A stretch of 64,000 nucleotides of DNA from Orobanche coerulescens (lineage: Eukaryota; Streptophyta; Magnoliopsida; Lamiales; Orobanchaceae). Each line of letters begins with the position of its first letter. Positions within the stretch are counted from its first letter, which is position 1. Below, one piece after another: positions 871 to 59,309 of the stretch. The position numbers were made by a program, and so were the translations under genes. The DNA is taken from assembly GCA_033398695.1 (NCBI GenBank), contig CM065817.1, positions 32,436,231-32,500,230 on the forward strand, written 5' to 3'. A model generated the notes under the pieces. The model made no database searches and had not been told where the DNA came from. It saw only the letters and a list, made by a program, of their open reading frames with translations.

Positions 871-1190
871 GCTAACGTACGTAACAAGACATTGTTAACG
901 TACGTAATATGATGAAGCTAACGTACGTAATGGATGAGAGATAACGTACGTAACACAGTTCAAACAAGTGAACGTTGGAGGAGTCAAAGTCAGAAAAGCA
1001 TACAACGGATATATGACGTCATCAGTGATGAAATGTTAACATACGTAACGGAGTCTATGCTAACGTACGTAACTCAAAATGATGAAACTCCCTGGACTGA
1101 AACTGAAAGAGGCTTACGTACGTAACCCGTGATGGTTAACGTACGTAACGATGCTTACGTACGTAAAGTGGTGATGATAGCGTATGTAAT
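871..1190 (+). promoter_or_regulatory. Class A palindrome array, 10 copies, in copia LTR U3
   Basis: Copies of GCTAACGTACGTAAC or close variants lie at about 871, 895, 917, 941, 1035, 1059, 1112, 1135, 1153 and 1177. The core TWACGTACGTAA is a near-perfect 12-bp dyad with two CpGs. The array ends about 40 bp before the TATA box. Binding by a dimeric host factor is inferred from symmetry and position only; the core also contains GTAC and overlapping ACGT. Confidence 0.85.
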
Positions 1191-1230
1191 GAGCAGTCTG
1201 GCAGCTAACGGCTAGTTTGATGATGGAGCC

Positions 1231-1238
1231 TATAAATA
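1231..1238 (+). promoter_or_regulatory. TATA box of copia LTR
   Basis: TATAAATA follows GGAGCC, 41 bp after the last palindrome. It is the only strong TATA in this LTR, and the minus-strand copies have TATAAATA at the equivalent place (55397-55404 and 58697-58704). Confidence 0.75.
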
Positions 1239-1499
1239 CCATGCTTATGGTATTGATCAGATACAACAACCTTGAGCAAATAGTCTATTCTTGTGATATT
1301 ATTACACACATTCTTGTTGTTGATATTGAGCTTAATTGTAAGTGTTTGAGTGAGAATTCACGAAAACATACACGAGTGGTAAAAGAAAAGATACGATTGG
1401 ATTCAGTGTTATTAGGATCAAGGATCCGGCATTATTAGAATTACAATCGATATCTAAGTGAGGTTTATCTAGTACCCATAGAAATCTAGAGCGGTTGAT

Positions 1500-1625
1500 T
1501 CCTTGTCCGATAGAAAAGGAAAACAGTTTAACTTGGACCGACGCAAAGACAAGTACAAGTGGTTTATCACGGACCAATAGAAGACGTGATTGTAACGGTT
1601 GTACCTCGACCGATAGAAGAGAGGA
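1500..1625 (+). repeat. Four-copy ~35-bp repeat in transcribed part of copia LTR
   Basis: Units resembling CCGATAGAAGA start near 1505, 1539, 1573 and 1607. The homologous LTR (minus strand) has the same four-unit spacing at about 58305-58435. The repeat lies about 270-390 nt downstream of the TATA box, so it should be in the transcript leader. Confidence 0.65.
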
Positions 1626-1780
1626 GAAGAGGTTTTTCTTTAGCCTATTGAAAAAGATACTGAGAGAGGACGTAGGCTCGTTTATAGCCGAACCTCTATA
1701 AATCCCCGTGCGTCATTTAATTTCCGAATTTTAATTTACGCTTCCGCAACACGGCGCAATATCCGAACCCGTACCCAACA

Positions 1781-1803
1781 TTCTTATGCATCAAGACAGG
1801 TGC
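1781..1803 (+). pseudogene. 23-bp sliver of gypsy pol between two insertions
   Basis: TTCTTATGCATCAAGACAGG matches the RNase H region at 7663-7680 and continues, after the solo LTR, at 3962. It separates the copia LTR end (1780) from the solo LTR start (1804). Bases 1799-1803 (GGTGC) are the left target duplication of the solo LTR; the right copy at 3962-3966 is GCTGC. Confidence 0.8.
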
Positions 1804-2132: not shown

Positions 2133-2557
2133 CTAGCGCGCGCTATTGTTGTTGTATAGCGCACGCTAGTATCTCTTAGTAGCGCATGCTACGCTTGTTT
2201 TGTAGCGCGTGCTAGCGAGTCGGGGGCAGCAATGGCAGTAAGATGTTTCAGCTCTCTGCTCTTTGGACGAGCATCTTAGCGCACGTTAAGATTTTGTCTT
2301 AGCGCATGCTATGGTTTAGGCTTAGCGCGCACTGGGTGTCCGGTAGCGCACGCTAATCCGGCAGTCCAAAACTGGGCAGAATGTTTCTGGACTCAGCCTG
2401 GTGTCCAGGTAGTGCACGCTATGGCCCGATAGCGCACGCTATCGAGGGGCTGTTAGCGCACGCTATCCTCTGGTAGCGCACGCTGAGCGACGTAGGTTAC
2501 GGGTAGTTTTTTTAGCTGGGTAGCGCACGCTAACTCTAATCGTTAGCGCACGCTAAA
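2133..2557 (+). promoter_or_regulatory. Class B palindrome array, 14 copies
   Basis: TAGCGCACGCTA, TAGCGCGCGCTA, TAGCGCATGCTA and close variants lie near 2133, 2155, 2179, 2202, 2276, 2299, 2322, 2343, 2410, 2429, 2453, 2473, 2520 and 2543. Each has the form TAGCGNNCGCTA with two symmetric CpGs. The last copy ends about 10 bp before the TATA box. Confidence 0.87.
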
Positions 2558-2567
2558 ACTCTCTGGC

Positions 2568-5784: not shown

Positions 5785-5819
5785 TTTCGAGGATGAAACT
5801 CCTTTTAAGGGGGGGATTA

Positions 5820-7533
5820 TGTAATATCCAACAGTAATTTCTTATCTACTGTTGTATTATTTGGCTAATTTGAGTACCGTTGTAATCATATTACATTTAG
5901 TTAATGTTTATTGATGTCGGGATATATTAGAATAGACTTGATTATAACTGCCATTCGCATTATGGTTGATTGCTGGACGTTGTGTAGATTGTTACATTTT
6001 TGGGCTAGGTTTTCTATGTTTAACGTACCATAAGATTCAACTTAACGTACGTTAATGTGTTGGCTTTACATACGTAATGGGGTACTGGTTACGTACGTAA
6101 TGCTGAGAATCTTATCTGATCTCAACTTTCAGCTTGGGGGCCGGACATGATCCGGATATTTGGCACTTTCGAGGCAGCTAAGTTGACACGTACGTAATGC
6201 TGAGGCTATAACATACGTAATGAGGTTGGTATTTTGAGGTAGTAGCCTCCGGAGACAGATTACGTACGTAACATCTATGGTATAGCGTACGTAAAGGGAT
6301 TAACGTACGTTATCTTCATGCTATAACGTACGTAACAAACTGTACAATTTATAAAAAGACAGCTTGTGTCTTTCATTTGCACGTTCCAACTTTGATTTTT
6401 CTCTCCAACTATCGTCCCCCTGCCTCCCTAGACCGATCATACTCTCTTCCAACTTGTATTTGAGCCTTACATCTTGGATTGGATCTTGTTGATTGGAAGT
6501 TTAGAGGTTTTCTTGAAGCTTGGAGTGTGTTCTTGTAGTTTTGGTGGTTGTTCTTCATTTCTGAAGGTATGTTGTGCGATTCTACTCTATATTTTTGTAG
6601 TTATGATGATAGTGATATGGTATACTGCACCTAGTGTTGAATTAATCAAGTAAAACATTTTTGTGGTTAAGATTTTTTAACACTTATTGATGAATATGGT
6701 AATTAAATGTTTGGAATGAAGATGTTCTTGATGTTTTAATGATAATGATCATGTTTATATAAATCATACTCATCTTGCTGGATGTATTAACATCAGTGTA
6801 ACAATGATAATCATTTAGCTTCATCGTAGTTAAGTTTAATCAATGGAATTGATATCATAGAAGTGTTAAAACACCATGTTAGGTATATTTACTACCTTGG
6901 GAAGAACTTGATGAATGTTAGAGATTAGAAATGATGTTTCTCTTGATTCAGAAATATTAAATGATATAACACCTTTGTTGATTCCGCTTAGCAAAGTCTT
7001 GAGAGATGATAAGGATACAGATAAATACAACTATAACTTTTAATTAATCGAATATGTTGATAACTTGAGGAAGTATTGATCATCATAATATAGTGGATAG
7101 TGTTGTTAAGAAGGTAATGCTAATTCTGGTTGATAATGTATTGAATTCGTTTATGTTGGTCTTTGTATAGAAGTAGATGTTGAAAAACCGTAAGAACTTG
7201 GTTAAACCGATTTGTTAATGGTGAATTGAAGGTGCTTAATGCATAAACTTGTTTATAGTGATAACAAGAGTATTAAAAGGACATTTTAGTATATTAATCT
7301 GAATTGTGAAAGGCAAACCATATGTATTTAAATTCATAAATAATCGATAGAATGTTCATTGGAATAGAATGAATTATTCGGGTTGGTTCGGGCGTCGTTT
7401 CCAATGAATTGATATCAATATTATGTGAATATATTATTGAATGAATTACGTTTCATTCAAGGTTGCTTGTTCGATTGAGTATTTAATCGAGGATACTGTC
7501 CGTTTGATCATTTGGAGAAGGACTATCTTTCAC
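5820..7533 (+). mobile_element. LTR A (partial) of the Tekay tandem
   Basis: It starts TGTAATATCC after a GGGGGGATTA polypurine tract and aligns along its length with LTR B (9478-11195). At 7533 it stops abruptly at ..TTTCACCTA and joins pol sequence (CATATCGATTG), where LTR B continues ..CACCTAAAGAATTG. About 1.07 kb of LTR 3' end is therefore missing. It contains a class A palindrome array, a TATA box at 6350 and donor-like AAG|GTATGT at 6566/6567. Confidence 0.88.
6021..6337 (+). promoter_or_regulatory. Class A palindrome array in LTR A plus TATA
   Basis: About ten copies (AACGTACGTTA, TTACGTACGTAA, AGCGTACGTAA and decayed forms) lie at about 6021, 6042, 6065, 6088, 6187, 6208, 6259, 6283, 6300 and 6323. 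TATAAAAAG follows at 6350-6358. The form matches the copia LTR at 871-1190 although the elements are from different superfamilies. Confidence 0.85.
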
Positions 7534-9467: not shown

Positions 9468-9477
9468 GGGGGGAGTA

Positions 9478-12265
9478 TGTAATATCAGACAGTAATTTCT
9501 TATCTACTGTTGTATTATTTGGATAATTTGAGTATCATTGTAATCATATTACATTTAGTTAATGTTTATTAATGTCGGGATATATCAGAATAGACTTGAT
9601 TATAAGTGTCATTCGCATTATGGTTGATTGCTTGATGTTGTGTAGATTGTTACATTTTTGGGCTAGGTTTTCTGTGTTTAACGTACGCTAAGATTCAACT
9701 TAACGTACGCTAATGCGTTGACATTACGTACATAATGGGGTACTAGTTACGTACGTAATGCTGAGAATCTTATCCGATCTCAACTTTTGGCATGGGGACC
9801 GGACATGATCCGGATATTTGGCCCTTTCGAGGCAGCCAATTTGACATACATTACGTACGTAATGCTGAGGCTATAACGTACGTAATAAGGTTGGTATTTT
9901 GAGGCAGTAGCCTATGGAGACAGATTACGTTCATAACATCTAAGGTGTAGCGTACGTAAATGAACGTACGTTATCTTCATGCTATAACGTACGTAATAGA
10001 CTGTGTAGCTTATAAAAAGATAGCTTGTGTCTTTCATTTGCACGTTCTAACTTTGATTTTTCTTTCCAACTATCATCCCCCTGCCTCCCTAGACCGATTA
10101 TACTCTTTTCCAACTTGTATTTGAGCCTTGCATCTTGGATTGAAGCTTGTTGATTGGAAGTTTAGAGGTGTTCTTGAAGCCTGGAGTGTGTTCTTGTAGT
10201 TTTGGTGGTTGTTCTTCGTTTCTGAAGGTATGTTGTGCGATTCTACTCTATATTTTTGTAGTTATGATGATAGTGATATGGTATACTACACCTAGTGTTG
10301 AATTAATCAAGTAAAACATGTTTGTGGTTAAGCTTTTTTAACACTTATTGATGAATATGATAATTAAAGGTTTGGAATGAAGATGTTCTTGATGTTTTAA
10401 TGATCATGATCATGTTTATATAAATCATACTCATCTTGCTGGATGTATTAACATCAGTGGAACAATGATAATCATTTAGCTTCATCGTAGTTAAGTTTAA
10501 TCAATGGAATTAATATCATAGAAGTGTTAAAATACCATGTTAGGTATATTTCCTACCTTGGGAAGAACTCGATGAATGTTAGAGATTAGGAATGATGTTT
10601 CTCTTGATAAAGAAATCTTAAATGATATAACACCTTTCTTGATTCGGCTTAGCAAAGTCTTGAGAGATGATAATAATACGGATGAATACAACTATAACTT
10701 TTAATTAATCGAATGTGTTGATAACTTAAGGAAGTATGATCATCATAATAAAGTGGATAGTGTTCTTAAGAAGGTAATACTGATTGTGGTTGATAATGTA
10801 TTGAATTCGTTTATGTTAGTCTTTGTATATAAGTAGATGTTGAAAAACCGTAAGAACTTGGTTGAACCGATTGTTAATGGTGACTTGAAGGTGTTTAATG
10901 CATAAACTTGTTTATAGTGATAACAAGAGTATTAAAAGGACATTTTAGTATAGTAATCCGAATTGTGAAAGACAAATCATATGTATTGAAATTCATCAAT
11001 AATCGGTAGAATGTTCATTGGAATAGAATGAATTATTCGGGTTGGTTTGGGCGTTGTTTCCTACGAATTGATATCAATATTATGTGAATGTATTATTGAA
11101 TAAATTACGTTTCATTCAAGGTTGCTTGTTCGATTGAGTATTTAATCGAGGATAACGTCCGTTTGATCATTTGGAGAAGGACTATCTTTCACCTAAAGAA
11201 TTGAGACAAGTTATCTTGCTTGGTTATAATGATGATTGAATTCTTGTGATGGTTATACATTTTGTGTATATGAAACACTTATGAATATGTGATTCGTAAC
11301 TTGATATTGTTCTTGATGATGTTTCCGTTTTTCATCGTTGGATTGCATTCCCAAGTTCATCACCTTTGAATCGTTGATCTCGTTGATCCTTATTGTCACT
11401 TCGGTGAGTTTCTTGATCCTTAATCGGATATATGATTTATTGAATTCATTGTCATGTTGTATCGTGACATATCTGGAATCATATCTGCGTGCTGATTGGT
11501 TATTGTGTAGGATTTTTGGCCAGGCACATATATAGTCATACATGGATGTTTCCGTATTGGACTGTGCACACGAGACGTAGTTCGTGAGGCTAATTAGGTA
11601 CATTGTCACACGTATATTCTGGATTCCGTATACGGGGTGGACATCTGCACGGACACATTCCAGATCGGGCGTACTGTGATGTCCATCTTGAGCCATATTG
11701 TTTGGTCGTTCATAGTCCATGTATGATTGGATATGTCCGACGGTTCATACGCCCGAGGGGTATGTTCAGTAGTCGGGATATTTCCTTGAGATCTAGTATA
11801 TGTGAATTGTATAATGTTTTGAGAATCATTTATCATGTATATCTGATCCTGTGGTTTGGGCAAAATACTTGTGTTGTATTTTAAGTCGAGGAAAATGTAA
11901 GGCACGGGAAGAGCATGGTGACGGCGAAGGGTTCGAAGGATACTAGTTCGGGGGCCTCAAATCTTTTATTGTCCGGTTATGCTTGAAAACCGTGTAATGT
12001 TATTTTCCGCTTCATTTAAATTATTGACCGATTGTATTGTTATTTGAAGTATATTCCATCTCCATATGGTTTATACTTGTATTTGGATCCTGTGTATGTT
12101 ATGGCCATTGGCCATACTATTTATAAACTCCTAATCGGAGTAATGACTATTTATTGTGGTTCGGTATCACAAGGTAATATATATTCAATCTATATTTTGG
12201 TATTGCCTGGTGGGTCCCAGTGTGGGGTCCACAACACTGTAATAGCCGCCTTTTGGGATGTTACA
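9478..12265 (+). mobile_element. LTR B (full) of the Tekay tandem
   Basis: This 2788-bp LTR starts TGTAATATCAG after a GGGGGGAGTA polypurine tract and ends GGGATGTTACA. Its U5 has TGGTGGGTCCCAGTGTGG near 12208, matching the solo LTR near 3898. TATAAAAAG lies at 10011 and donor-like AAG|GTATGT at 10227/10228. The acceptor position reads TTTTAAG (near 11885) instead of TTTCAG, so the proposed intron may be lost here. A 155-codon minus-strand ORF (11253-11720) inside it has no recognisable similarity and looks fortuitous. Confidence 0.88.
9678..9996 (+). promoter_or_regulatory. Class A/B hybrid palindrome array in LTR B
   Basis: Ten copies are present. Several are half-and-half, such as TTAACGTACGCTAA (near 9679 and 9700) and TAGCGTACGTAAA (near 9948), which join an A-type arm to a B-type arm. 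TATAAAAAG follows at 10011. The hybrids show that classes A and B intergrade. Confidence 0.83.
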
Positions 12266-24836: not shown

Positions 24837-26460
24837 ACACGTCTTTTGTGTAACTGTCGCAAGTACACGATATTGTATCAAGTAGTAAGTGGACTTTTTG
24901 AGTCCGGTTTATCGATCCCATGAGGAAGTTAAGTTATATATTGAATTATACAGTTTATCTATTTGTTATAGAGATTTAGATGAGCGAAACAAACAATTTA
25001 AAAGTTTGGTTTGACAATTGCGACGAAAATGCAATAATAGTTCTAAAATTTAAGGAAATAAAAGATTGCACTAATAATATATTAATAAAAGGATAAAATA
25101 AAATAGTTGGGATTACAAACTTAGTTCATTAGTTATAGAAGATATATAGGAGATCATAAGATGTATTTACTTATTATGTTTTGTAGATTCGATTTTCCTT
25201 AAAAGACGATTTCTCTTTCGAATGTCAAAATGCCCCTTATATATTGAATCAATCCACTATATTTCTATGTTGATTGGATTCAATACATAGCATTAGGTTT
25301 TATGAAAATAATTCAAAGAACCATTCTAAGGTCTAGAGCTATATTTCTATCCCCTAGAACAACTTAGAGTGAAGATCATTTGATCTAATCAACATATTTT
25401 CTTTCGAAACATATGAAGACCATAAATATCATCACTTATTGGCCAAATAAATAAAGATTGGTAAAACAATAAAAATCACACACAATAATAAGTAATCCAT
25501 AATAGATCTTTATACAAACTTAAATAACATGACAAACCTTGTTTATAATCCCAACTAAGGATAACTTAGCCCATGAGGGTTTATTCAACATATTACAAGC
25601 TTGAGTGGCCATTATTAGTTGAAAAAGGGAAAGAATTGATCCTAACGTCCTTAGTAGATAAGGAGAAAGAAGCAATAAACTCCCTCAACAACATAAGCTA
25701 AACCACTATTACATAAGCTGACCACTATTACATACACTCTCTCAAGAACACAAGTGTGTTCTTCACACAAAAAAAAAGTATTACAAAATGAGAAAATAAT
25801 AAGATGAATGATGATTAATGATAGATCTAAGGGGTCTATTTATAAACCGAAAGTCTTCTAATAGCTCCAAAACTTCAGCATTATTACATTAGATCGCATC
25901 AAGGCCAGCCATCCCCTCAATAATAGACCAAAAGTATAAAAAATTTAAAAATGATCATACATATGTCAAGAGTTACGGCCGTAACTTTCAGATATTACGG
26001 CCGTAACATAGAGGATTTACGGCCGCATGCTTTGGATGTTACGGCCGTAACATGGCTTCGGCTTTTTGCACATTAGTTGTTGTGTGAGTTACAGCCTTAA
26101 CTTTATTTGTACGCCCATATGGAGTTTCAGACTTCATTTTCAGCCCAGAATTTCTTAGACTTTTGCGTTTTCGCCCCAAATCTTCTTCGGATGATAACTT
26201 TTGATATATAACTCTGATTTTGAATCCGGAAAGACTGTCGAACTCGTCTCGTAAAGGTCTACAACATGAATACATAAAAACTCAATAAAGCGAATATTCT
26301 ATAAACATGTTATTTATTGAGTAAATCAGTAATTCAATCCGATTAAGGCTAAATTTACATCTTCATCCTATAAATATAAAATTATTAAAAACTAATTAAT
26401 TTAAAGCAAAAGAGAGTAGACTAGCTCATAATTATGGGTGAAATATATCAACACTAATGA
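24837..26460 (-). repeat. Athila 3' LTR
   Basis: It aligns with 34128-34676 plus 44393-45440. The aligned part ends at ACTAATGA (26453-26460), next to a pyrimidine tract CTTTTTTTTA that is the complement of the polypurine primer. Compared with the 5' LTR it lacks about 31 bp at its inner end, including the hairpin at 45444-45470. The minus-strand TATA is TATAAATA at 25844-25837. Confidence 0.85.
25971..26122 (-). promoter_or_regulatory. Class C palindrome array, Athila 3' LTR
   Basis: Six copies of GTTACGGCCGTAAC or decayed forms lie at about 25971, 25994, 26015, 26038, 26088 and 26108. The nearest is 127 bp upstream of the TATA box (25837-25844, minus strand). The 5' LTR has the same six positions at 44965-45115. 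Confidence 0.87.
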
Positions 26461-27058: not shown

Positions 27059-27996
27059 TCAGGGACACTTCTCCGTTTTTATTTGTCGCTCGATTATTTC
27101 GTTCTGGATTCTCACTTTTCCGGCTTGGGATGTTCCTAATCCCCTAACACTTTCAAGCAAATCTGTCTCAAAAGGCGTCAAGTCCTCCCTGGAATCATCC
27201 TCGGGTTCAAAGTCCTCCTCATAGCTACTCTTCGCTTCCAGTTCCACACGTGCCCGCTTGATCCTCAACTGAGTACTTCGAAAAATACTACTTCGGATAT
27301 TGAGTCGATTCCCGTGCGCCAATATATCGCCCCCCTCCGAAATTTTCACCCCTTGGCTTCTGCAAATACCGGTGATAAGGCAAGGGTACTGCATCTTTTA
27401 CCTAGTAGGAACCGTGCCGACATAGTGATAAATAGTATTATAGATGTGAGTACCTAGATCCATTTTCACCCCTCGGCGGATAGCAAATATGCCTCTCAGA
27501 TGGCCGATGGAAATAGTAGTCAGATTCGAAGTCGGGTAAATACTCCCGGCAGCCCAGATCCATAAGAACCAAGCATCATCAATGAGGTCTGACTGGTTGT
27601 ATAGGGGTTTGATGATCCCGATAATGTCATGAAGCTCGCTCACTAGTGCCCATCGTAACACCCTACCATCAGGCACATCCTCATTCGATAAAATGGAAAT
27701 GTCTACCGCATTAGTGCAATCAACCCCCAAGTAATTGTTGATCACATCCGGTGAAAAATTAATCACTTTTCCATTCACCGTCGTTTGATGATATGTAGGC
27801 GACCCTACCCGTTGTAAATGAACTTTTGGATGAAAGGTGAAGTGGTAGTGTCGCTATCTGGATCGCCAATGAAATCATCAAGCTTGAATAACCTCTCCTT
27901 TATGCACCGTGTGTTTTGAATTATTTGCGGTAGTGCCAGTTCTTGAGACGAAGAACCGACCTTCTCTTTTCCTTTTGAGGATTTCTTAGGTGCCAT
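27059..27996 (-). pseudogene. Athila env-like ORF (broken)
   Basis: The start is taken at ATG 27996-27994 (MAPKKSSKGKEKVGSS), directly after an acceptor-like TTTCAG|GG. A basic N-terminus leads to a region with VNGKVINFSPDVINNYLGV-type motifs (27,398-27,790), WFLWIWAAGSIYPTSN, and PCLITGICRSQGV (27,330-27,390), ending in an acidic tail. This pattern matches the third ORF of Athila elements, called env-like from its position; I see no clear signal peptide or membrane segment. A frameshift lies between 27,779 and 27,805, and one in-frame TAA at 27400-27398 divides the middle and C-terminal parts. Confidence 0.75.
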
Positions 27997-31499: not shown

Positions 31500-31510
31500 G
31501 TAAACATATC

Positions 31511-42003: not shown

Positions 42004-44387
42004 TGTAACACCCCAATATATTCGAAATAATTACAGCGCCGTAAATCCTTTATATAAGAATTTACAAGGCTAATTTGAGAAATACGGAAAATAATACCAA
42101 AGTACAATTAAGGTTATAATTCAAAACCAGTTAAACAATTCAAATGAATCCATTATTATAAGCATTCCAAACAGCAACAAAATACGCGTACTCGAGTACT
42201 GAAAAATAACTAGAAAACAAGACAACATCAATTTACATTACTGAACCACTTCATCGTCATGTCGGTACTGTAGTTGCTTCCACGCTCCTCGGCTACCTGA
42301 ACATCAAAACAAATGTCCACCCCCGAAGGGGTTAGCAAAACGATGCTAGTACAAGTATCATAGTACATAAATCGGATATGCAGCAACAATGCATCATAAA
42401 TTACATAAAACGGACTTCTGCCACCGGAATCCAACGATGCGAATCCACATGATTCCATCAACACAACACAGGGTAATCCAACGATCCAGCGCCCTCAGTA
42501 TAGATCCCCATGATGATCTCGTCGGGCCAACGCATGGTGGAAAACCCGTCCAACGATCCAGTGCCCTCAGCATTGATCGTCGGATCCCTTCGGATCATCA
42601 CAACATACACAAACACAAACCATGCATATACATATGCCAAATCGATATGTCCATCAACATGAACATTCAAGTAATCAATAACGAATACCATGATAATTCA
42701 AAGGAACTAAACTCATGTTCAACAACATGAATAAACTGTATGCATGATCAAAAAATCCAATATTAACAATTTTCAAATACGATACTTGCCTCAAAGATGA
42801 CAAGAACTAAATACTCCAACGAATGTCAACATGTTCAAAGGCCACCGTCCCTCGATCGATCACTATGCAAGGCTCGGACCTTGTTCAAAAGAAATAACAA
42901 GGAACTCAACATACTACTCAAAACTGACGTATGATCACCGAATATTCTAAATTAAAATCATGTAATAATGACGTAAGGCCGGTTCGCGATTAGTATACTT
43001 GATGAAAGCCAAGCCAGAAATAGGGATACACTTCATATGATTCGAATGATCATATCGGAGGCGAAATGCCGATGTCTATGGATTCAAGGATATACAAGTC
43101 ATCAAAATCTAGACTTCAATATGGGTTTCAATTCCCAATTCCTATATGTTCGGATCTTACGATTTATACCACAAGTTTGACTCAAGATACAAGCATACCT
43201 AATGTACTATGCAAGGGAACGATACTACGGTGATCCAGGTTGATTTCATTGACATAGCCGATTCATTACAAACATGAACATGAAAAATATTGTCAAATCA
43301 AACACCTCTATCAAAACATGAATTTTCATCGGTGTAACATCATAGTAATTCTTAGAACCTTACTAAAATCATGCTCATAATTCAAAACGAACTTAAGATA
43401 CTACACCCTAAGGTTTTTATTCATCAAGGCTCGATCAACACTCTTAGCAACGAGGGAAAAACAAGGTATAACCGGGTTCCAATCTTCAAAAACTTGGTGC
43501 TGGATTCATAAGATCTTTAACTACTCCAATGATTTCCGAAGCAAGCTCAAAATATAGCTAAGAACATAAATTCCAACTTGGTAAACCGTAACATACCTTA
43601 AACGGAAGGAAAGGTTTAAATAACTTGATGAACTCCACGCCCAAAAGCTAGAACACCAATCCTCAAAGCTCCATTTCCTTCAATGGTGATGTTAAGAGGC
43701 TGGTATGCGGGTTTAGGATGGAGGGAGTAACTTTCGAAGTCTCAAAATCGGGTGTGGGAAGAGGTGTAAACTGAAAAATGAAGTTAGGTGTTGTCCTGTT
43801 TATAGAAAAAGGATATTAGCGCGTGCTACTGCTCCTAATTAGCGTGCGCTAACGGGCTTACAGTCTACTGTCTCTGTCTGATATCGGCTTAACGTATGCT
43901 AAACATCCCTTACGTGCACTAAGTACAGCAATTAGCGTATGCTACCACTTAATATAGCATGCGCTAACGACCATACGAAGCTTTACTGACCTCACTGTAC
44001 TCAACTTTAGCGTGCGCTAGCCTCAAACCATTAGCATGCACTAAGCACCATTGACTCAACTTTTCCAAAATCCGTCCAGATTCATTCCGACATATCCCAA
44101 CAAAGATCAGTGGTCCGATCTCACCTACCAACCTGTCTCAATCATGTTGACTACGTATAGCGCGTGCTAAGGCTCATACGTAGCGTGCGCTAGCTAACTC
44201 AATTAGCGTGCGCTACGCTTAGACCTTAGCGTGCGCTACAAGTGCACAAATACAAGTATGAACAACATTCATGAAATCATACGCTCAACAACACAGGATC
44301 ATGAAATACGGAGGATAATACTCAAATCGAATACAATATATACTATGTCACAAGGTTCAAATACACATCAGAATCTCGGGTATTACA
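42004..44387 (-). repeat. 5' LTR of nested Tekay element
   Basis: 2384 bp, TGTAACACC..TATTACA. Layout as in the 3' LTR: 12-copy class B array (about 44,240-43,815), U5 palindrome GTACTCGAGTAC at 42188-42199, and only two direct-repeat units at 42472-42580. Confidence 0.9.
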
Positions 44388-44392: not shown

Positions 44393-45471
44393 GATCTAAT
44401 CAACATATTTTCTTTCGAAACATATGAAGACCATAAATATCATCATTTATTAGCCAAATAAATAAAGATTGGTAAAATAATGAAAATCACACACAATAAT
44501 AAGTAATCCATAATAGATCTTTATACAAACTTAAATAACATGACAAACCTTGTTTATAATCCCAACTAAGCATAACTCAGCCCATGAAGGGTTTATTCAA
44601 CATATTACAAGCTTGAGTGGTCATTATTAGTTGAAAAGGGGAAATAATTGATCCTAACTCCCTTAGTATATAAAGGAGAAAGAAGCAATAAACTCCCTCA
44701 ACAACATAAGCTAAACCACTATTACATACACTCTCTCAAGAACACAAGTGTGTTCTTCACACAAAGAAAAAGTATTACAAAATGAGAAAATAATAAGATG
44801 AATGATGATTGATGATGGATCTAAGGGGTCTATTTATACACCTAAAGTCTTCTAATAGCTCCAAAACTCCAGCATTATTACATTAGATCGGATCAAGGCC
44901 AGCCATCCCCTCAATAATAGACCAAAAGTATAAAAGATTTAAAAATGATCATACATCTGCCAAGAGTTACAACCGTAACTTTCAGATGTTACGGCCATAA
45001 CATAGAGGATTTACGGCCGTATGCTTTGGATGTTATGGCCGTAACATGGCTTCGGCTTTTTGCACATTAGTTGTTGTGTGAGTTATGGCCGTAACTTTAT
45101 TTGTACGCCCGTATGGAGTTTCAGACCAGAATTTCTTACACTTTTGCATTTTCGCCCCAAATCTTCTTCGGATGATAACTTTTGATATATAACTCTAATT
45201 TTGAATCCGAAAAGACTACCGAACTCGTCTCGTAAAGCTCTACAATATGAATATATAAAAACTCAATAAAGAGAATATTTTATAAACATGTTATTTATTG
45301 AGTAAATCAGTAATTCAATCCGATTAAGGCTAAATTTACATCTTCATCCCATAAACATCAAATTATTAAAAACTAATTAATTTAAAGAAGAAAAAAGTAG
45401 ACTAGCTCATAATTATGGGTGAAATATTTCAATACTAATCACGGATAAGTGTACAAAACTAACACTTATCA
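44393..45471 (-). repeat. Athila 5' LTR, outer segment
   Basis: Continues the Athila LTR after the Tekay insertion and contains the class C array (44965-45115) and TATAAATA (44838-44831). It ends on the plus strand in GATAAGTGT-ACAAAACTA-ACACTTATC-A, a perfect 9-bp hairpin at the 5' end of the element, followed by TSD ATCCA (45472-45476). Several copies show CpG decay relative to the 3' LTR, for example TTATGGCCGTAAC. Confidence 0.88.
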
Positions 45472-45476
45472 ATCCA

Positions 45477-46396: not shown

Positions 46397-48285
46397 TGTA
46401 ACACCCCCCGAGATATTCGGAGAATATCACAGTGCCGTAAATCCTGACCTGGGACCCACTAGGCTCATCTCACTCACAACGTATCAAAATTTGACAAAAT
46501 CCACTTGGGAATCAATAATTCGATACAAACAAGGAAGTTCAACCACGGACAAACAATACCATGAAGAAATACAAGAAGTTGTACGGCAATGGAAAAAGGA
46601 CTTTCCTAAAGTACTCGAGTACCATTTATTATTACAAGGATAAAATGGACCAAAGAGAACAACGACCAAACAAAATGGAACACCACTAGCCACAGTATCA
46701 CGCCTCGCCGTCCTCATCGTATCGTCCCGCTGCTCGCTCATATGGTTCCTTAGGACCTGAAAAACACAAAAGTAATTTTCCCCAAACGAGAGGGGTTAGG
46801 GCAAGTATTACAAGTGAAATGTCAAGTCTTATACATGAAAGTATATACACCAGTTCAAAGCTATGATAATGATTTTCCGGAAAATGCAATTATCCAAACA
46901 TATTTAGAAATGATGATATCTCTTGATTAACCGTGAACTCGACAATGCGCGAATCCCTCCTCGACCCCGTCGGATCATCTCGGAGTGGCTAACCCAAATG
47001 TTCACGGAACCGACATAAGCGGAACCCTCCTCGACCCCGTCGGGTCCTCTCGGAGTGAACGAAAGTAACTCTCACAATCACATGCATTACTTTTCACATT
47101 TAAGAACATAACTTTCACAAGAATCACTTGCCTGGAATCGAGAGGAAAAAGGTACGAATGACAAGGTACCAAGATTGAAGGATTCGACAACTCCGAACCT
47201 AGACAAGTTCGTAATTCAATTATCAAAACCCCATCGGTATGAAAATAAGTTGGAATCACCCGAATTTACTACCCCGATACATGTGTTCCGGGAATAATTC
47301 TCTTGGATAGTGAATCGCAAGTCAAATATCCCAAACACTCAAGAACTCCGGAAATATGCCAATAAATCCGTATGAAAACATGTATCCAAGGTAGATAACT
47401 CGCAATCGATATATTCTAACATAACAACAAGCTGGATCGAAGAAATCGGATGGAAAATCCCCAAATCCCGAAAATCTAGGGTTGTGAGAAGTTTACCTTG
47501 ATTTGGAGCGGTGGAGAGGATTAAACGTTGATAAATCCGAACTAGAAACTCAAAGATGTTGCTAGATAATTGCAGCTCGAAGAACTCCTCACAAATTGCC
47601 CTGAATCGCCTAAAATCGCCCAAGGAGGTGAAGGAAGGAAGAAATGACGATTTTGGAACGAAGATGTCCTATTTATACTAAATAGGGACTAGCGTGCGCT
47701 AGCCATGAAAAATAGCGCGCGCTATCGGACTCACCAGGCAATCCAGTAGCCTCTGCCCGGCTCGTTAGCGTCGCTAACACTGCTCATAGCGTGCGCTAGT
47801 GACTTCAATTAGCGTGCGCTAATTATTTCTAATAGCGTGCGCTACACGGTAGTCGGTGTCCGGTCCGTAACCCTCATCCCCGGCTTTGCTCTCTTTAGCG
47901 CACGTTACTCTGTAACGTGGCGTGCGCTACCACCAAAATCTAGCGTCGCTACGGTCACACCTAGCGTCGCTAGAATTCCCTTTTCGATCCGGTAGCTACC
48001 GGTATGCGCCTCAATACATTAGTAGCGTGCGCTAATTATAACGGATAGCGTGCGCTACCCTCACTAAATTAGCGTGCGCTACAAGGTGTGCGTAGCGTGC
48101 GCTACCCATTACGAAGGTAGTATAATCGCATCAAGGATCCGAAAGCGGACGATCCGAACAAGAAAAGGGGTGTAAATCCAATTGACAAGAGTTCCAAGAT
48201 TAATATAAGCTTACTAAACACTTACATGAGTGTAAAAATTACAAAGCACAAGAGTAGAAGATTTACAAAAAGTACGGGTATCACA
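46397..48285 (-). repeat. 3' LTR of second nested Tekay element
   Basis: 1889 bp. Minus-strand layout: 14-copy class B array (48113-47688), TATAAAT at about 47677-47671, donor AAG|GTAAAC at 47496, module 47057-46951, CTAAC 46799-46795, acceptor TTTTTCAG|G at 46757 (740-nt intron), U5 palindrome 46611-46622. Compared with the 5' LTR it has clustered single-base losses, for example TAGCGTCGCTA three times where the 5' LTR has TAGCGTACGCTA. Confidence 0.9.
47688..48113 (-). promoter_or_regulatory. Class B palindrome array, about 14 copies
   Basis: TAGCGTGCGCTA dominates, with TAGCGCGCGCTA and TAGCGCACGTTA variants. The array ends about 11 bp from the minus-strand TATA. The 5' LTR equivalent is at about 54,537-54,964. 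Confidence 0.87.
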
Positions 48286-53238: not shown

Positions 53239-53242
53239 CTTC

Positions 53243-55147
53243 TGTAACATCCCCCGAGATATTCGGAGAATATCACAGTGCCGTAAATCCCGACCTGGGA
53301 CCCACTAGGCTCATCTCACTCACAACGTATCAAAATTTGACAAAATCCACTTGGGAATCAATAATTCGATACAAACAAGGAAGTTCAACCACGGACAAAC
53401 AATACCATGAAGAAATACAAGAAGTTGTACTACAATGGAAAAAGGACTTTCCTAAAGTACTCGAGTACCATTTATTATTACAAGGATAAAATGGACCAAA
53501 GAGAACAACGACCAAACAAAATGGAACACCACTAGCCACAGTATCACGCCTCGCCGTCCTCATCGTATCGTCCCGCTGCTCGCTCGTATGGTTCCTTAGG
53601 ACCTGAAAAACACAAAAGTAATTTTCCCCAAACGAGAGGGGTTAGGGCAAGTATTACAAGTGACATGTCAAGTCTTATACATGAAAGTATATACACCAGT
53701 TCAAAGCTATGATAATGATTTTCCGGAAAATGCAATTATCCAAACATATTTAGAAATGATGATATCTCTTGATTAACCGTGAACTCGACAATGTGCGAAT
53801 CCCTCCTCGACCCCGTCGGATCATCTCGGAGTGGCTAACCCAAATGTTCACGGAACCGACATAAGCGGAACCCTCCTCGACCCCGTCGGGTCCTCTCGGA
53901 GTGAACGAAAGCAACTCTCACAATCACATGCATTACTTTTCACATTTAAGAACATAACTTTCACAAGAATCACTTGCCTGGAATCGAGAGGAAAAAGGTA
54001 CGAACGACAAGGTACCAAGATTGAAGGATTCGACAACTCCGAACCTAGACAAGTTCGTAATTCAATTATCAAAACCCCATCGGTATGAAAATAAGTTGGA
54101 ATCACCCGAATTTACTACCCCGATACATGTGTTCCGGGAATAATTCTCTTGGATAGTGAATCGCAAGTCAAAGATCCCAAACACTCAAGAACTCCGGAAA
54201 TATGCCAATAAATCCGTAGGAAAACATGTATCCAAGGTAGATAACTCGCAATCGATATATTCTAACATAACAACAAGCTGGATCGAAGAAATCGGATGGA
54301 AAATCCCCAAATCCCGAAAATCTAGGGTTGTGAGAAGTTTACCTTGATTTGGAGCGGTGGAGAGGATTAAACGTTGATAAATCCGAACTAGAAACTCAAA
54401 GATGTTGCTAGATAATTGCAGCTCGAAGAACGCCTCACAAATCGCCCGGAATCGCCTAAAATCGTCTAAGGAGGTGAAAGAAGGAAGAAATGACGATTTG
54501 GGAACGAAGATGTCCTATTTATACTAAATAGGGACTAGCGTGCGCTAGCCATGAAAAATAGAGCGCGCTATCGGACTCACCAGGCAATCCAGTAGCCTCT
54601 GCCAGCTCCGTTAGCGTACGCTAACACCTGCTCATAGCGTGCGCTAGTGACTTCAATTGGCGTGCGCTAATTATTTCTAATAGCGTGCGCTACCTGGTAG
54701 TCAGTGTCCAGTCCAGAACCTACTGTCCCCAGCTTTGCTCTCTTTAGCGCACGTTACTCTAGTAACGTAGCGTGCGCTACCACCAAAATCTAGCGTACGC
54801 TACCAGTCACACCTAGCGTACGCTAGGAATTCCCTTTTCCGATCCGGTAGCTCTTTGGGTATGCGCCTCCAATACATTAGTAGCGTGCGCTAATTATAAC
54901 GGATAGCATGCGCTACCCTTACTAAATTAGCGTGCGCTACAAGGTGTGCGTAGCGTGCGCTACCCATTACACGAAGGTAGTATAATCGCATCAAGGATCC
55001 GAAAACAGCGACGATCCGAACAAGAAAAGGGGTGTAAATCCAATTGATAAGAGTTTCAAGATTAATATAAGCTTACTAAACACTTACATGAGTGTAAAAA
55101 TTACAAAGCACAAGAGTAGAAGATTTACAAAAAGTACGGGTATCACA
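53243..55147 (-). repeat. 5' LTR of second nested Tekay element
   Basis: 1905 bp with intact class B array (54,537-54,964), U5 palindrome GTACTCGAGTAC (53457-53468) and module 53797-53904. Where the 3' LTR keeps CGG, this copy often reads CAG, consistent with deamination of methylated CpG or CHG sites. Confidence 0.9.
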
Positions 55148-55152
55148 GAATA

Positions 55153-55168
55153 TCTTGGGGATGTTACA
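55153..55168 (+). mobile_element. Outer Tekay LTR, segment 3 of 3
   Basis: TCTTGGGGATGTTACA closes the outer LTR with the same ending as the solo LTR (..TTAAGGGTGTTACA at 3961). The next base starts the truncated gag-only copia LTR. Confidence 0.82.
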
Positions 55169-56026
55169 AAACCTCACTCAGATTTAGATATGATTCTAAT
55201 AATGCTGAAACAATGATCCTAATAACACAGAATCAATCTACAATCCGTATCTTTCCTCTCGTGTATGGTTTTAGTGTATGAACACTCAACACCTATCAAT
55301 TAATCACAAATACAACAACAATAATGTTTACAATGATATCTGATCAATATGTGATTTGCTTGGAGTTGTTGTTCTGAATGATACCAAATGCCTTGGTATT
55401 TATAGGCAAATTCTCTCAACTAGCTGTTAGCTCCTGCATCCTTCATTACGTACGTTAAGTACAACCCATTACGTACGTTAGCCGTATTACGTACGTTAAC
55501 CTTGCTTCGTTACATACATTACGTTCCTTGAAAAATAGTCCAGTAGCTTCTATGGTCTTCTTTAAGTACGTTATCATTATACTCTTTACGTATGTTATAT
55601 CCAATGTCCGTTGCATGCTGACCTACTCTATGACGTCATATGTCCGTTCAATGGTTCCAATATTTGAATTCATATTCCAACTGCATTACGTATGTTAACA
55701 ACATTGTGTTACATACGTTAACTTCTTCCGATTGCGTACGTTATCTTGTTTCGGTTGGATACGTTAAATCATCAGGTGACTTTTCAGGTGAGTCTTTAGG
55801 TTACTATCTATTACGTACGTTATACACTGATCATAGCGTACGTTATCTTCGTTAATCATCACTTGCTTGCTTTTGTGACTGTTTCGAATGTCTTCATCTT
55901 CTTTGTTGTTCTGCTTTGTTCTAATGTTGTTTTCTTTGATCGATAACCTCATCAACTCATCATTAGTTCATTATCAACTCATCATCAAAATTAATTTATG
56001 ATTATATGGAATAGAATATTCCAACA
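55169..56026 (-). repeat. 3' LTR of gag-only copia, truncated
   Basis: It aligns with 58465-59309. It contains a 12-copy class A array (about 55,445-55,850) and TATAAATA at 55404-55397, 41 bp below the array. Its 3' part, including the four-copy repeat, is missing. Confidence 0.87.
55445..55850 (-). promoter_or_regulatory. Class A palindrome array, 12 copies
   Basis: ATTACGTACGTTAA and decayed forms (TTACATACGTTAAC, TTGCGTACGTTATC, TAGCGTACGTTATC) recur every 15-50 bp just above the minus-strand TATA. Confidence 0.86.
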
Positions 56027-56500
56027 ATCTCCCCTTTTTTGATGATAACAAAACAACAACCTTTTAATGGGATTTTATACCTGCAAAATTAACACAATTA
56101 CAGATCAAAATTTTCGGCTTTGTATGTTTTGTTAGTTTTCATCTCCCCATTTTTCTTTTCTTCTTTTCAACTTCTTCATATTATTTTTGTAACTTTCTTC
56201 TTTGTTTTCTCGATTTTCTTCTCCTTTGTCTTTTCTCCTCTCCCCCTTTCATGATCGAGATATTGTTTTCATTTTTCTCGTCATTCTTCCATGACTCGTA
56301 TTCTCCTTCTCCCATCATTTTTCTCGACTTTCTCTCCCCCTTTTTGTCATAATCAAAAATGGCATAGTAAATTAAATATGACAAATTACGGGTAATACTC
56401 CCCCTGAAAAATAGATTTCCCCATTATTTAAAAAAGTAACTCCCCCGGAGTTAAATATCAATTGTTAAAAATATAAATTATCAAATACCAATTGATGGAA
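56027..56500 (-). other. 3' non-coding region with repeated polypurine tracts
   Basis: Plus-strand pyrimidine tracts CTCCCCTTTTTT (56029-56040), CTCCCCCTTTC (near 56,240), CTCCCCCTTTTTG (near 56,335), CTCCCCCTGA (near 56,398) and CTCCCCCGGA (near 56,442) match the arrangement at 254-738. The first abuts the LTR. Confidence 0.75.
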
Positions 56501-58060
56501 ATATATTAATTTTGATTTTTGGGGATCCAACCAAGAGTTGGTTTTTCTTTCGAAATATAGACGATATTCGGTATAATGGCTCTTTTGGAATCCAAACTTT
56601 TTTTAATTTTGATCGTCCGTCTTGGGCTTTTGCAAATCGAAATATGATGCCCAAGTTTTAAACATTTCTCACACCGGGGTATTTTTAAATTTAAGGATTC
56701 GGTTTTATTATTCGGTTTGAATCTAACCCCTGTTTATTTAATGAAAATTTTTGAACGGAAAGCATTTGTTCAAATTTGTCATTTCCGCAAGAAAATTTAT
56801 TCGTTAAATTCTTATATTCGTTTTGAACTATCAAAATATCATCCTTCAATTTATTTTCAGTTTCTAGACATTTAGAATGATCGGTTTCTATAAATTTCCC
56901 CTTTTCATTTATTTTGGAAATTTCAATTTCCAACATTTTAATTTTCGATTTCAGGGTTTTATTATCGAGTAAAGTATTTTGAAAATCGGTATGTAAAAGT
57001 TCGAATGCTTCAAATAATTCGTCGTGAGACGAGGTAGTAACCTGGCTTTCGATGTCGCTTTCGTCGAATGAACTTCTTGCCATGAGTGCGAGGTTATTTT
57101 GAGTATATTCATCGTCATCCTCTTCATCGCTCCATGTTGCTATGAACTTCCTTCTAGAAGTCGTGCCTCGGCAATTTTTCGCAAAGTGGCCTGGTTTACC
57201 ACAGTTTCGATAGTTATTGTCGAATTCTTTGATTCGCTCGTCTAGATGTCTTTCCTTCTCCAGTTTAATAAGTTTTGAAACTTATTTATGTTCTTGGCAT
57301 AATATGCCAATTCTTCATCATCTTCGTCCTCCGGGATTTCATCTTTGTTCGACATCTTAGCTTTCAAAGCTATGGTTCTTTCTTTCGGTTTTGGTTTGGC
57401 ATTTCGAGATTTACGAACTATCTCGTAGTTTATTAGCGATCCGACAAGGCCGCTAAAATCAAGATTATTGAGATCATTTGATTCCATTATAGCTGTAATC
57501 GTCCCGTCCCATTCAACAGGTAGTGATCGTAGGATTTTCTTTACTTTTCCACTACTTGTTAATGGTTTCCCAAAACAAGTTAGTCCATTAGTAATGACCG
57601 AAAATCAGTCGAGCATGTTTGTTATGGACTCGTCACTTTTCATCATAAATAGCTCGTATTAGTGAATGAGCATATTTATTTTCGTCTCCTTGACTTGTGA
57701 TGTTCCTTCATGAGTTACCTCAAGCATTTTCCAATTCTCTTTGGCACTATCACATGATGATATCCGGTTGTGTTCTTTCGGATTTAGAGCATAAGGGACT
57801 AGCCCATTAATAATTGCGTTGCTTTGCAATTATAATGGACGTTCTTCCAATCTTCATCATTATAATCTTCGAAGCTTTTTAGAGAGCCGTCCGGTTTTGT
57901 AGAAATTTTTGGACCTAGACAAATAACTTTCTAAAGCTCGATGTCGTAGGCTCGGATGAAAATAGACATTTTTTCTTCCACGTCATGAAGTTTGATCCAT
58001 CAAAGAATGGAGGTCAGTTTAGGGTAAGACCTTCGACCAGGGCAAATTGAAATGCCATAG
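56501..58060 (-). pseudogene. Gag of gag-only copia element
   Basis: N-terminal part (57,490-58,000) is a broken UBN2-type gag domain. It continues as MESNDLNNLDFSGLVGSLIN (57,242-57,487), then zinc knuckle 1 near 57,165-57,205 reading Y-RN-C-GKPG-H-FAKN-C, so its first Cys is Tyr. A coiled-coil-like region follows (57,083-56,691; SSHDELFEAFELLHTDF and KSKIKMLEIEISKINE), then a frameshift, zinc knuckle 2 (C-EK-C-LKLG-H-HISI-C, about 56,630-56,680) and a basic tail (SPRRTIKIKKVWIPKE). No protease, integrase or RT follows. The end point matches 2-253. Confidence 0.85.
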
Positions 58061-58100
58061 GATCTTCTTCTCCTCAGATGTTAAGCAACTTTCAAGAGAA

Positions 58101-58116
58101 ACCGCTCTGATACCAA
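58101..58116 (-). other. Primer binding site, initiator-Met tRNA
   Basis: Minus strand TTGGTATCAGAGCGGT, one base from the 5' LTR; the standard copia initiator-Met site. Confidence 0.88.
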
Positions 58117-58117
58117 T

Positions 58118-59309
58118 TGTTGGGTAATTGGCACCCCACTTAGAATGTTGGATAATATTGCCTAGTAGAGTTTTCAAACTCTTTTGCGTTGCGGAAGCGT
58201 AATTAACTTGCGAAAAGTGAACGACACAAGATTTATAGAGGTTCGGCCAAATGTGCCTACGTCCTCGCTCCGTATCTTTTTCTATAGGCTTAAGATCAAC
58301 CTCTACACATCGTCTTCTATCAGTCCGAGGGATACCATTACAATCTCGTCTTCTATCAGTCCGAGATAAATCGTTACACTCTTATCTTTATGTCGGTCCA
58401 AGATAAATCATTTTCCTTTTCTATTGGATAAGAAAGCAACCTATCTGGCTTTCGATGGGTACTAGACAAACCTCACTCAGATTTTGATATGATTCTAATA
58501 ATGCTGGATCAACAATCCTAATAACATCAAATCAATCTACAATTCGTATCTTTCCTCTTGTGTATGGTTTTAGTGTATGAACACTCAGACATCTATCAAT
58601 TAAGCACAAATATAACAACAATAATGTTTACAATGATATCTGATCAATATGTGATTTGCTGGGAGTTGTTTTTCTGAATGATACCAAATGCCTTTATATT
58701 TATAGGCAAATTCTCTCAACTAGCCGTTAGCTCTTGCATCCTACATTATGTACGTTAAGTACAACTCGTTATGTACGTAAGCCGTATTACGTACGTTAAC
58801 GTTGCTTCGTTACGTATGTTATGCTCCTTGTAAAATAGTCCAGTAGCTTCTGTGGTTTTCTTTACGTACGTTATCATTAAACTCTTTACGTATGTTATCT
58901 CCAATGTATCCGTTGCATGCTGACCTACTCAATGACGTCATCTGTCCGTTCAACGGTTCCAATATTTGAATTCATATTCCAACTACATTACGGACGATAA
59001 CAACATTGTGTTATGTACGTTAACTTCTTATGATCGCATACGTTATCTTATTTCGGTTGCGTACGTTAAATCATCAGGTGAGTCTTCAGGTGACTATCTA
59101 TTACGTACATTATACACTGATCATAACGTACGTTATCTTCGTTAATCATCACTTGCTTGCTTTTCTGACTGTTTCAAGTGTCTTTGTCTTCTTTTGTTTT
59201 GCTTTGTTCTAATGTTGTTTTATTTGATCGATAACATAATCAACTCATCATTAGTTCATCATCAACTCATCATCAAAATTAATCTATGATTATATAGAAT
59301 ATTCCAACA
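58118..59309 (-). repeat. 5' LTR of gag-only copia, second copy
   Basis: 1192 bp, TGTTGGAAT..TACCCAACA on the minus strand. Class A array at about 58,743-59,135, TATAAATA at 58704-58697, and the four-unit leader repeat at about 58,305-58,435. Homologous to 739-1780. Confidence 0.9.
58743..59135 (-). promoter_or_regulatory. Class A palindrome array, about 12 copies
   Basis: TTACGTACGTTAA-like units match those of the 3' LTR in order, with independent decay (for example TTATGTACGTTAAG near 58,745). The array lies just above the minus-strand TATA (58704-58697). Confidence 0.86.

Follow-up and report, generated by a model that had tools for sequence, protein, structure and literature searches.

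A possible promoter code of paired CpG quasi-palindromes common to Sirevirus and Ty3/gypsy long terminal repeats in Orobanche coerulescens

Retrotransposons and site arrays of the window

We analysed a stretch of 64,000 nucleotides from the genome of the plant Orobanche coerulescens (assembly GCA_033398695.1, contig CM065817.1, positions 32,436,231 to 32,500,230; hereafter the window), which holds retrotransposons of the Sirevirus (Ty1/copia) and Ty3/gypsy lineages. The long terminal repeats (LTRs) of both carry arrays of 12-bp CpG quasi-palindromes in their U3 region. The shared, strictly spaced pattern of these sites suggests that unrelated elements are switched on by the same DNA-binding proteins.

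LTR pairs were found by self-comparison of the window. The gypsy element of group C, nested in an Athila LTR, has its LTRs at 34677–37118 and 42004–44387, that of group D at 46397–48285 and 53243–55147, and group B is a repeated pol-LTR unit (3959–11195). A 3.6-kb direct repeat (91%; 3959–7536 and 7673–11195) joins gypsy pol and LTR in tandem there. Groups B, C and D and Athila encode, in various parts, Ty3/gypsy-type reverse transcriptase, RNase H, integrase, protease or gag (PF00078, PF17917/17919, PF17921, PF24626, PF00665, PF08284, PF03732). No coding region of group A (2133–2557) lies in the window, and the lineage label of this group is unverified. The LTR ends TGTAACACCC would agree with Tekay, a putative assignment that we take over from an earlier note on this DNA. 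The group D gag-protease has 130 protein matches; among the best 120 of these, the named species are all plants except for the top match, which is labelled as a bacterium.

The elements that the earlier note had called gag-only copia are Sireviruses, judged by the non-coding hallmarks of that lineage, namely polypurine tracts and the junctions PPT-AT-TG (PPT, polypurine tract) and of the 5' LTR (Bousios et al. 2010, PMC2829016). The polypurine tract AGGGGGAG occurs before the 3' LTR in four copies in the left and three in the right element, and an eighth copy, the last of the window, is situated at the edge of the group D LTR. The junction of PPT-AT-TG with the 3' LTR is exact in the left element (AGGGGGAGATTG) and one base off in the right (AAGGGGAGATTG). 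The 5' LTR junction CA/ATTGG/TATCAGAGC is exact in the right Sirevirus (58104–58119, minus strand); the window does not include a 5' LTR of the left element. The Sirevirus gag open reading frame (ORF) encodes a zinc knuckle and has one plant relative, with 66% identity over 29% of the query, and one Sirevirus that carries the module has no pol ORF of at least 150 amino acids. The right Sirevirus lies on the minus strand; its 3' LTR is truncated (55169–56029), and its 5' LTR begins at 59312. Between the truncated LTR and that of group D, a short piece (55148–55168) resembles another gypsy LTR end.

The arrays and associated features are as follows:

270..736, plus strand: Sirevirus polypurine tracts AGGGGGAG at 270, 415, 470 and 729, the last followed by AT and by TG, the LTR start
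873..1189, plus strand: U3 array in the 3' LTR of the left Sirevirus; 10 sites in blocks 4-2-4, TATA box 41 bp after the last site
1092..1098, plus strand: CTGGACT in the 53-bp gap of the left Sirevirus, 15 bp before the proximal tetrad
1230..1238, plus strand: TATA box CTATAAATA of the left Sirevirus LTR
2134..2555, plus strand: group A U3 array, lineage unverified; 14 sites in blocks 4-4-4-2, TATA box at 2567
2387..2393, plus strand: CTGGACT in the 66-bp gap of group A
6021..6335, plus strand: group B Ty3/gypsy array, first copy; blocks 4-2-4, intervals 22, 23, 23, 97, 23, 51, 23, 18, 23, TATA box 14 bp after the last site
9679..9996, plus strand: group B Ty3/gypsy array, second copy; blocks 4-2-4
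25973..26120, minus strand: Athila 3' LTR array of class TTACGGCCGTAA; 22-bp spacing, blocks 2-4, 50-bp gap
27398..27853, minus strand: Athila env-position ORF; PF20167 match below the family cut-off
28502..28651, tail to ~28710, minus strand: Athila internal array between integrase and env-position ORF; TTACGGCCGTAA class, 22/50-bp register
30252..31535, minus strand: Athila reverse transcriptase/RNase H ORF; PF00078, PF17919
36548..36969, minus strand: group C Ty3/gypsy 3' LTR array; 12 sites in blocks 4-2-4-2
43817..44238, minus strand: group C Ty3/gypsy 5' LTR array; layout as in the 3' LTR (blocks 4-2-4-2)
44967..45114, minus strand: Athila 5' LTR array; decayed sites, register as in the Athila 3' LTR
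47690..48104, minus strand: group D Ty3/gypsy 3' LTR array; three sites one base short
54536..54962, minus strand: group D Ty3/gypsy 5' LTR array; 14 sites in blocks 4-4-4-2, TATA box 12 bp after the last site
54710..54716, minus strand: CTGGACT in the 64-bp gap of group D
55446..55845, minus strand: right Sirevirus 3' LTR array; blocks 2-4-2-4
58104..58119, minus strand: junction of 5' LTR and primer-binding site of the right Sirevirus, CAATTGGTATCAGAGC; exact
58746..59135, minus strand: right Sirevirus 5' LTR array; blocks 2-4-2-4, TATA box at 58697–58705
58837..58843, minus strand: CTGGACT of the right Sirevirus, 15 bp before the proximal tetrad

The window contains 78 strict TWRCGNNCGYWA sites, compared to 0.46 expected from 200 dinucleotide-preserving shuffles, none of which held more than 3. 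The earlier note had placed arrays in twelve U3 stretches, and these (4,192 bp) indeed hold 74 of the 78 sites, that is 17.7 per kb. The remaining 59,808 bp hold four (at 15794, 24447, 28502 and 28590), and the R-U5 parts of the array-bearing LTRs none (12,060 bp by our own bounding). The note had named an equal density elsewhere as fatal to its idea, and this is not what the counts show. Its inventory was incomplete in that it overlooked the array at 28502–28651. Outside arrays there are lone strict sites at 15794, beside a gypsy pol fragment, and at 24447. A scan of the whole genome (3,646,015,169 bp) returned 2,615,881 matches to TWRCGNNCGYWA versus 46,903 to the same pattern read backwards; this is a count of pattern matches, and adherence to the full arrangement described below was gauged from samples. 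In twenty 10-kb stretches, taken at position 3.0 Mb of contigs C1–C20, we counted 86 sites versus one control match, with no site in 11 of the 20. With 430 sites per Mb, versus a genome-wide average of 717, this sample is atypical in amount.

Spacing, block structure and accompanying motifs

Within the window, 57 of 93 short intervals measure exactly 23 bp from start to start; the remainder are mostly 20–24 bp, with 22 bp in the Athila LTR. The twenty outside stretches gave 23 bp in 25 of the 44 intervals of at most 24 bp. Sites within arrays are 0.87 identical, and the spacers between them are nearly random, with an identity of 0.30 within arrays, 0.26 between lineages and 0.26 after shuffling. 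Sites are therefore maintained one by one. A simple tandem repeat, which the earlier note had listed as a way in which its idea could fail, is ruled out by the same numbers.

A purely mutational origin, in which a 23-bp tandem repeat expanded and then decayed without any function, is very improbable. Tandem Repeats Finder does call some stretches 23-bp repeats, and the within-array spacer identity is slightly above the shuffled value, but the contrast between random spacers and 87% identical sites speaks against it, as do the even runs, the typical TATA distances and the occurrence of one second motif in different lineages (see below). Bacteria provide a contrasting case: 15 stretches in GTDB genomes match three consecutive sites, and about six of these 15 have identical or near-identical spacers; we take them as tandem repeats. 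In viral contigs, the three class patterns gave 1, 0 and 0 such stretches.

The sites are organized in even-numbered blocks. We applied a fixed rule (at least 4 sites, 3 of them strict, gaps of at most 140 bp), which gave 34 clusters, 11 in the window and 23 outside. The rule omits the decayed Athila 5' array and the array before the Athila env position, splits the group C 3' array and counts related LTRs separately; the loci L044–L054 were picked from sites listed by the genome scan. Runs of two (49) and four (44) sites predominate over runs of six (3), one (20) and three (9). Altogether 96 of 125 runs are even, with 53 expected and a maximum of 70 in 5,000 permutations of interval order, and the clusters outside the window alone gave 64 of 86 (36 expected). 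The fixed rule serves as an untuned check on lineage-specific matrices, which were built on the same sites that they score. With the matrices, every Sirevirus and group A–D LTR of the window consists of twos and fours only, except for one with three sites that have lost a single base. The number of sites per such LTR is 10–14 by the matrices and 7–14 by the fixed rule, the 7 stemming from the split array. Site loss thus explains some of the odd runs, though not provably all. The exceptional LTR belongs to group D, where three TAGCGTACGCTA sites of one copy are each one base shorter (TAGCGTCGCTA) in the other (47690–48104 versus 54536–54962); such parallel losses at perfect palindromes are perhaps a biological, perhaps a sequencing effect.

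Within tetrads, the outer intervals measure 23 bp in 62 of 88 cases and the middle interval in 17 of 44 (p=0.0006); among the other middle intervals, 12 measure 24 bp and 8 measure 18 bp. Because the outer intervals keep the 23 bp more often than the middle one, the unit is the pair. The first and third spacers of tetrads are unlike (identity 0.30, n=22), so a tetrad is not a recently doubled pair. The gaps between blocks cluster near 44, 52, 64 and 74 bp, and they follow the helical repeat: the periodicity is 10.3–10.5 bp (R 0.37, p=0.0005 versus jittered gaps; 78 non-redundant of 90 gaps).

The earlier note had described the sites as palindromes. Many are inexact, however, and the sites show a polarity. 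A TATA box orients 24 of the 34 clusters; in these, the central dinucleotide of the sense strand is CA in 155 sites and TG in 8, and CA is in the majority in 17 of the 18 clusters with at least three such sites. The TATA box follows the last site after 41 bp in the window's Sirevirus LTRs, after 43 bp in locus L038 and after 12–14 bp in groups A–D. Outside the window the distance is 11–12 bp in nine clusters (L032 twice, L042, L044, L048, L049, L051–L053) and 18, 22, 32 and 34 bp in the remainder; by chance, a 60-bp flank would contain a TATA match with a probability of 0.08. That the arrays stand before a TATA box, as the earlier note had claimed for all, holds for the Sirevirus LTRs and groups A–D, but not for Athila, where no TATA[AT]A occurs in the ~120 bp downstream of the LTR array.

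When the masked arrays were compared with each other, a second motif surfaced, CTGGACT (search pattern AGCYACTGGACT). It is present in 13 of 22 representative arrays, while the best 7-mer in shuffled arrays reached 6. These 22 were drawn from the 34 clusters by leaving out second LTR copies, near-duplicates and GGCC-class clusters; two of the 13 (L046, L050) have no TATA box and are hence unoriented. Of 64 gaps, 20 contain the motif or its complement, compared to an expectation of 0.39; these are mainly gaps of 49–56 bp (8 of 17) and 60–68 bp (10 of 14), versus 0 of 8, 1 of 9 and 1 of 16 in the other gap classes. This amounts to 6.1 copies per kb of gap compared to 0.06 per kb in other DNA (15 in 257 kb). 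Its position is nearly fixed, as 16 of 19 copies end 14–17 bp before the next site and the other three 26, 7 and 6 bp before it. The distance is 15 bp in the left and in the right Sirevirus LTR and 16 bp in that of L038; group A has 16 bp as well, group D has 17 bp, and six outside loci (L044, L046, L047, L049, L053, L054) have 14–17 bp. All of these six except L044 resemble group A or D LTRs in DNA comparison, and the only firmly gypsy carrier is group D. A dyad of the form AGTCCAGTNNNNACTGGACT, full or nearly full, is found in four gaps. A GACGTCA site is also present in the ~100-bp gap of all three Sirevirus U3 arrays (873–1189, 55446–55845, 58746–59135).

Sharing across lineages and the origin of the module

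Arrays lie in the LTRs of groups B, C and D and of Athila, which encode gypsy reverse transcriptase, RNase H or integrase, as well as in those of Sireviruses. The boxes are thus not restricted to Sireviruses, in line with the earlier note, which had seen a common grammar just upstream of the promoter in unrelated lineages. One layout before the TATA box, a gap of 51–53 followed by intervals of 23, 18 and 23, is common to the two Sireviruses of the window and to gypsy group B (one copy of group B has 14 in place of 18). Nearly the same succession (51, then 23, 18 and 24, TATA box after 11 bp) is found in L032 and L042, which have no coding match that would place their lineage; L032 is in part similar to the LTR of group C.

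The earlier note had seen that the sequence classes of the sites differ. The Sirevirus LTR in L038 has mostly TAGCGCACGCTA-type sites. Site classes are not lineage marks; they mix within and between lineages. Beside its array, the L038 LTR is 78–85% identical to the left Sirevirus LTR of the window, whereas the array block hardly aligns (one stretch of 79 bp at 71% and pieces of 13–20 bp). Judging from this pair, array blocks turn over faster than their flanks.

How did two lineages come by the same arrangement? One possibility, compatible with a common protein assembly reading the arrays, is that a U3 module passed between Sireviruses and gypsy elements by template switching or conversion and that only the contact points survived. 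The layout common to Sireviruses and group B argues for such an exchange, as do the same place and orientation of CTGGACT in Sireviruses and group D and the like polarity in L038 and gypsy arrays. There are precedents: the LTR of the gypsy element RLG_Quinta has a motif with a homologue in the copia element RLC_Gisela (PMC11302176), and the maize Sirevirus palindrome is the commonest motif of structured Helitron regions (PMC10760457). With the sites masked, however, only 3 of 42 comparisons of copia with other spacers exceed z 4 (mean z 1.3), and all three reflect the CTGGACT element. An earlier test with seven arrays gave one copia–gypsy pair at p=0.035 and no other significant pair, and the TATA distances differ (41 bp versus 12–14 bp). 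There is thus no clear trace of recent exchange; apart from CTGGACT, the spacer homology expected from it was not found. We regard the chances of an exchange as evenly poised. What we see would fit either an old exchange that left only the contact points behind or a convergence of the lineages on the same protein assembly, and we lean slightly to a common origin because two different motifs share one order.

Athila follows a pattern of its own, with a GGCC core, a 22-bp spacing and a 50-bp gap beside the block of four. Its internal array (28502–28651) lies upstream of the env-position ORF and has the core and register of the LTR array, and a second Athila copy (L026, 5805–6063) has an array at the equivalent place. 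Boxes both in the LTR and upstream of env have been described for Sireviruses (Bousios et al., PMC2829016), and the parallel supports a promoter-related role. In L034 (4634–4888), a GC-rich stretch combines TTACGGCCGTAA sites 20–23 bp apart with a TATA box; it may link the Athila class to the other arrays. Inside the Athila element of the window there is also an Rfam match to the plant snoRNA snoR71 (56 bits, 33311–33417, plus strand) that partly overlaps an ORF on the opposite strand; this snoRNA family may include retrotransposon pieces.

Possible readers of the arrays and comparison with known systems

The arrays look like sites for a multimeric DNA-binding protein, which agrees with the earlier note's idea of a dimeric transcription-factor site. 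In our model, a DNA-binding protein, probably one dimer per 12-bp quasi-palindrome, would occupy the array. Dimers would associate in pairs on sites 23 bp apart and then in pairs of pairs, a second factor would bind CTGGACT where it is present, and the complex would activate transcription from the TATA box at the distance typical of the lineage. The proteins would act in trans and be common to Sireviruses and Ty3/gypsy elements. We favour a protein assembly, without which the helical phasing and the even size of the blocks would be difficult to account for, and the factor is more likely encoded by the host than by an element, since several lineages use it, one of them without a pol ORF. From sequence, we infer binding, activation, methylation-sensitive binding and the host origin of the protein. 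That the arrays form a composite enhancer read by shared, cooperative, trans-acting DNA-binding proteins seems to us a proposition with an even chance of being right. The fuller statement, namely that Sireviruses and Ty3/gypsy elements have one promoter code (polar CpG quasi-palindromes paired at 23 bp, pairs of pairs, phased gaps and often a fixed CTGGACT) read by a common protein assembly, we hold tentatively, at just under an even chance.

The fate of the arrays after integration bears on this model and, indirectly, on the methylation-sensitive switch that the earlier note had suggested. Between LTR copies of one element, CpG has turned into TG/CA at 26 of the 105 positions within arrays and at 54 of the 240 outside them (Fisher p=0.78), and other bases differ at 4.8% in arrays and 4.1% elsewhere. 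Because arrays lose CpG as fast as the remaining LTR, nothing points to a lasting protection of arrays from methylation, and this candidate was rejected. Since integrated arrays appear to decay like methylated, unselected DNA, the near-perfect sites would have to reflect selection acting on transposing copies.

These results also weigh on the main alternative, which we consider unlikely. Here, a protein encoded by one lineage would bind the arrays and remove silencing, similar to VANC or TnpA, and other lineages would have acquired its target sites. Fast-diverging arrays of non-coding motifs do resemble VANC targets, the VANC6 motif also occurs in the unrelated element AT9TSD1 (PMC5735166), and the fast turnover of array blocks in L038 would be consistent with such a system. 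Among the 19 ORFs of at least 150 amino acids in the window, five have no Pfam match and could be considered. The other 14, however, match only gag, protease, reverse transcriptase, RNase H, integrase and the env-position family, so that no element-encoded anti-silencing protein was recognised in this Pfam search, which was confined to the window. Moreover, CpG decay is no lower in arrays than in the rest of the LTR, and VANC targets form tandem repeats, in contrast to the nearly random spacers found here.

A further explanation is at the level of RNA: selection for hairpins in the transcript would preserve the palindromes, or these would be a by-product attracting small RNAs as proposed for maize Sireviruses. 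Small-RNA hot spots are reported at Sirevirus palindromes (PMC10760457, PMC5311732), and the sense RNA of the arrays folds better than shuffled sequence (z -4.3, -3.4 and -1.8), but palindromes produce such folding by themselves, and in an array for which both strands were folded the antisense strand exceeded the shuffles more strongly. Measured against a crude null (12 shuffles of two-base blocks), the excess stability was larger for the antisense strand in 23 of 24 arrays (Wilcoxon 2e-7), while raw folding energies favoured sense in 13 and antisense in 11 of them. The CA centre of the sense transcript mispairs, where TG would form a wobble pair, and neither 23-bp spacing nor helical phasing is necessary for RNA pairing. 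We therefore hold selection for sense-RNA hairpins unlikely and consider an explanation by RNA structure as a whole improbable. A conflict, in which the symmetry of the DNA is kept while the transcript avoids duplex formation, would fit the data.

Several observations weigh against a common promoter code. To our knowledge, no single known plant transcription factor fits all three site classes. Odd runs make up 29 of 125, the pre-env Athila array (runs of 3-2-3-1 with the matrices) does not fit the even rule, and the permutation p-values overstate independence, as loci are related within families. A strict dimer needs no polarity, and common descent of the sites or a directional complex must be added. 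No exact CTGGACT is found in groups B and C, and it is missing from 9 of the 22 representative arrays. Athila may stand apart, given its 22-bp spacing, a gap lacking CTGGACT and the lack of a TATA box nearby. No factor for the Sirevirus boxes was found by Bousios et al. (PMC2829016).

The earlier note knew of no described plant LTR module of this form, but palindromic CpG boxes before the TATA box have been published for 13 Sireviruses (PMC2829016). These RM boxes number 8–32 per element, 3–14 of them in the 3' LTR, and are clustered in CpG islands followed on average 37 bp later by the TATA box. They are very similar in elements with unrelated LTRs, are reported as specific to Sireviruses and have a CGG-CCG core in 12 of the 13 elements (PMC2829016). 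The arrays described here are alike in that a palindromic box occurs in at least eight copies upstream of the TATA box in Sirevirus and group A–D LTRs. They differ in being present also in Ty3/gypsy and Athila-type elements, and the CGG-CCG core is found in the window only in the Athila class TTACGGCCGTAA, the other cores being, for instance, CGTACG or CGCACG. A 23-bp register, even blocks, phasing, polarity or CTGGACT are not reported in the available parts of PMC2829016.

Maize Sirevirus palindromes cluster in the cis-regulatory region of the LTR and evolve fast (Bousios et al. 2016, as cited in PMC10760457 and PMC5311732). Like the arrays here, they are shared with unrelated elements, namely Helitrons (PMC10760457); the accessible text of this work stresses secondary structure and small RNAs, and a grammar shared with Ty3/gypsy is absent from it (PMC10760457, PMC5311732). 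The VANC targets of VANDAL elements are likewise short non-coding motif arrays with fast turnover and a motif present in an unrelated element, but by our reading they are not palindromic, and they belong to tandem repeats of DNA transposons (PMC5735166, PMC10398659). QuinCent of RLG_Quinta is comparable as an LTR segment common to gypsy and copia and explained by exchange, but it is a 162-bp motif found by homology, without a grammar of sites separated by random spacers (PMC11302176). In the literature covered, for the most part open-access papers, we found arrays of this kind described for no Ty3/gypsy element, and none of the features of the grammar (23-bp register, even blocks, phasing, polarity, CTGGACT) was mentioned. 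The module in Ty3/gypsy LTRs and its grammar thus look new, while Sirevirus CpG boxes before the TATA box were already known. The heat-response elements of ONSEN and the TnpA sites of En/Spm are short protein-site arrays upstream of a transposon promoter as well; they differ in being limited to one family each and in having other motifs and known proteins.

LTR promoters are regarded as fast-changing and lineage-specific. If the proposed code is true, one factor of the host (or of an element) would control much of the retrotransposon load in a genome of 3.65 Gb. A pair of sites spaced by 23 bp would be a concrete probe for isolating the protein that reads them, and the question of which protein reads the Sirevirus boxes would become directly testable. 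The arrays would, moreover, provide a case in which the exchange of promoter modules can be separated from convergence.

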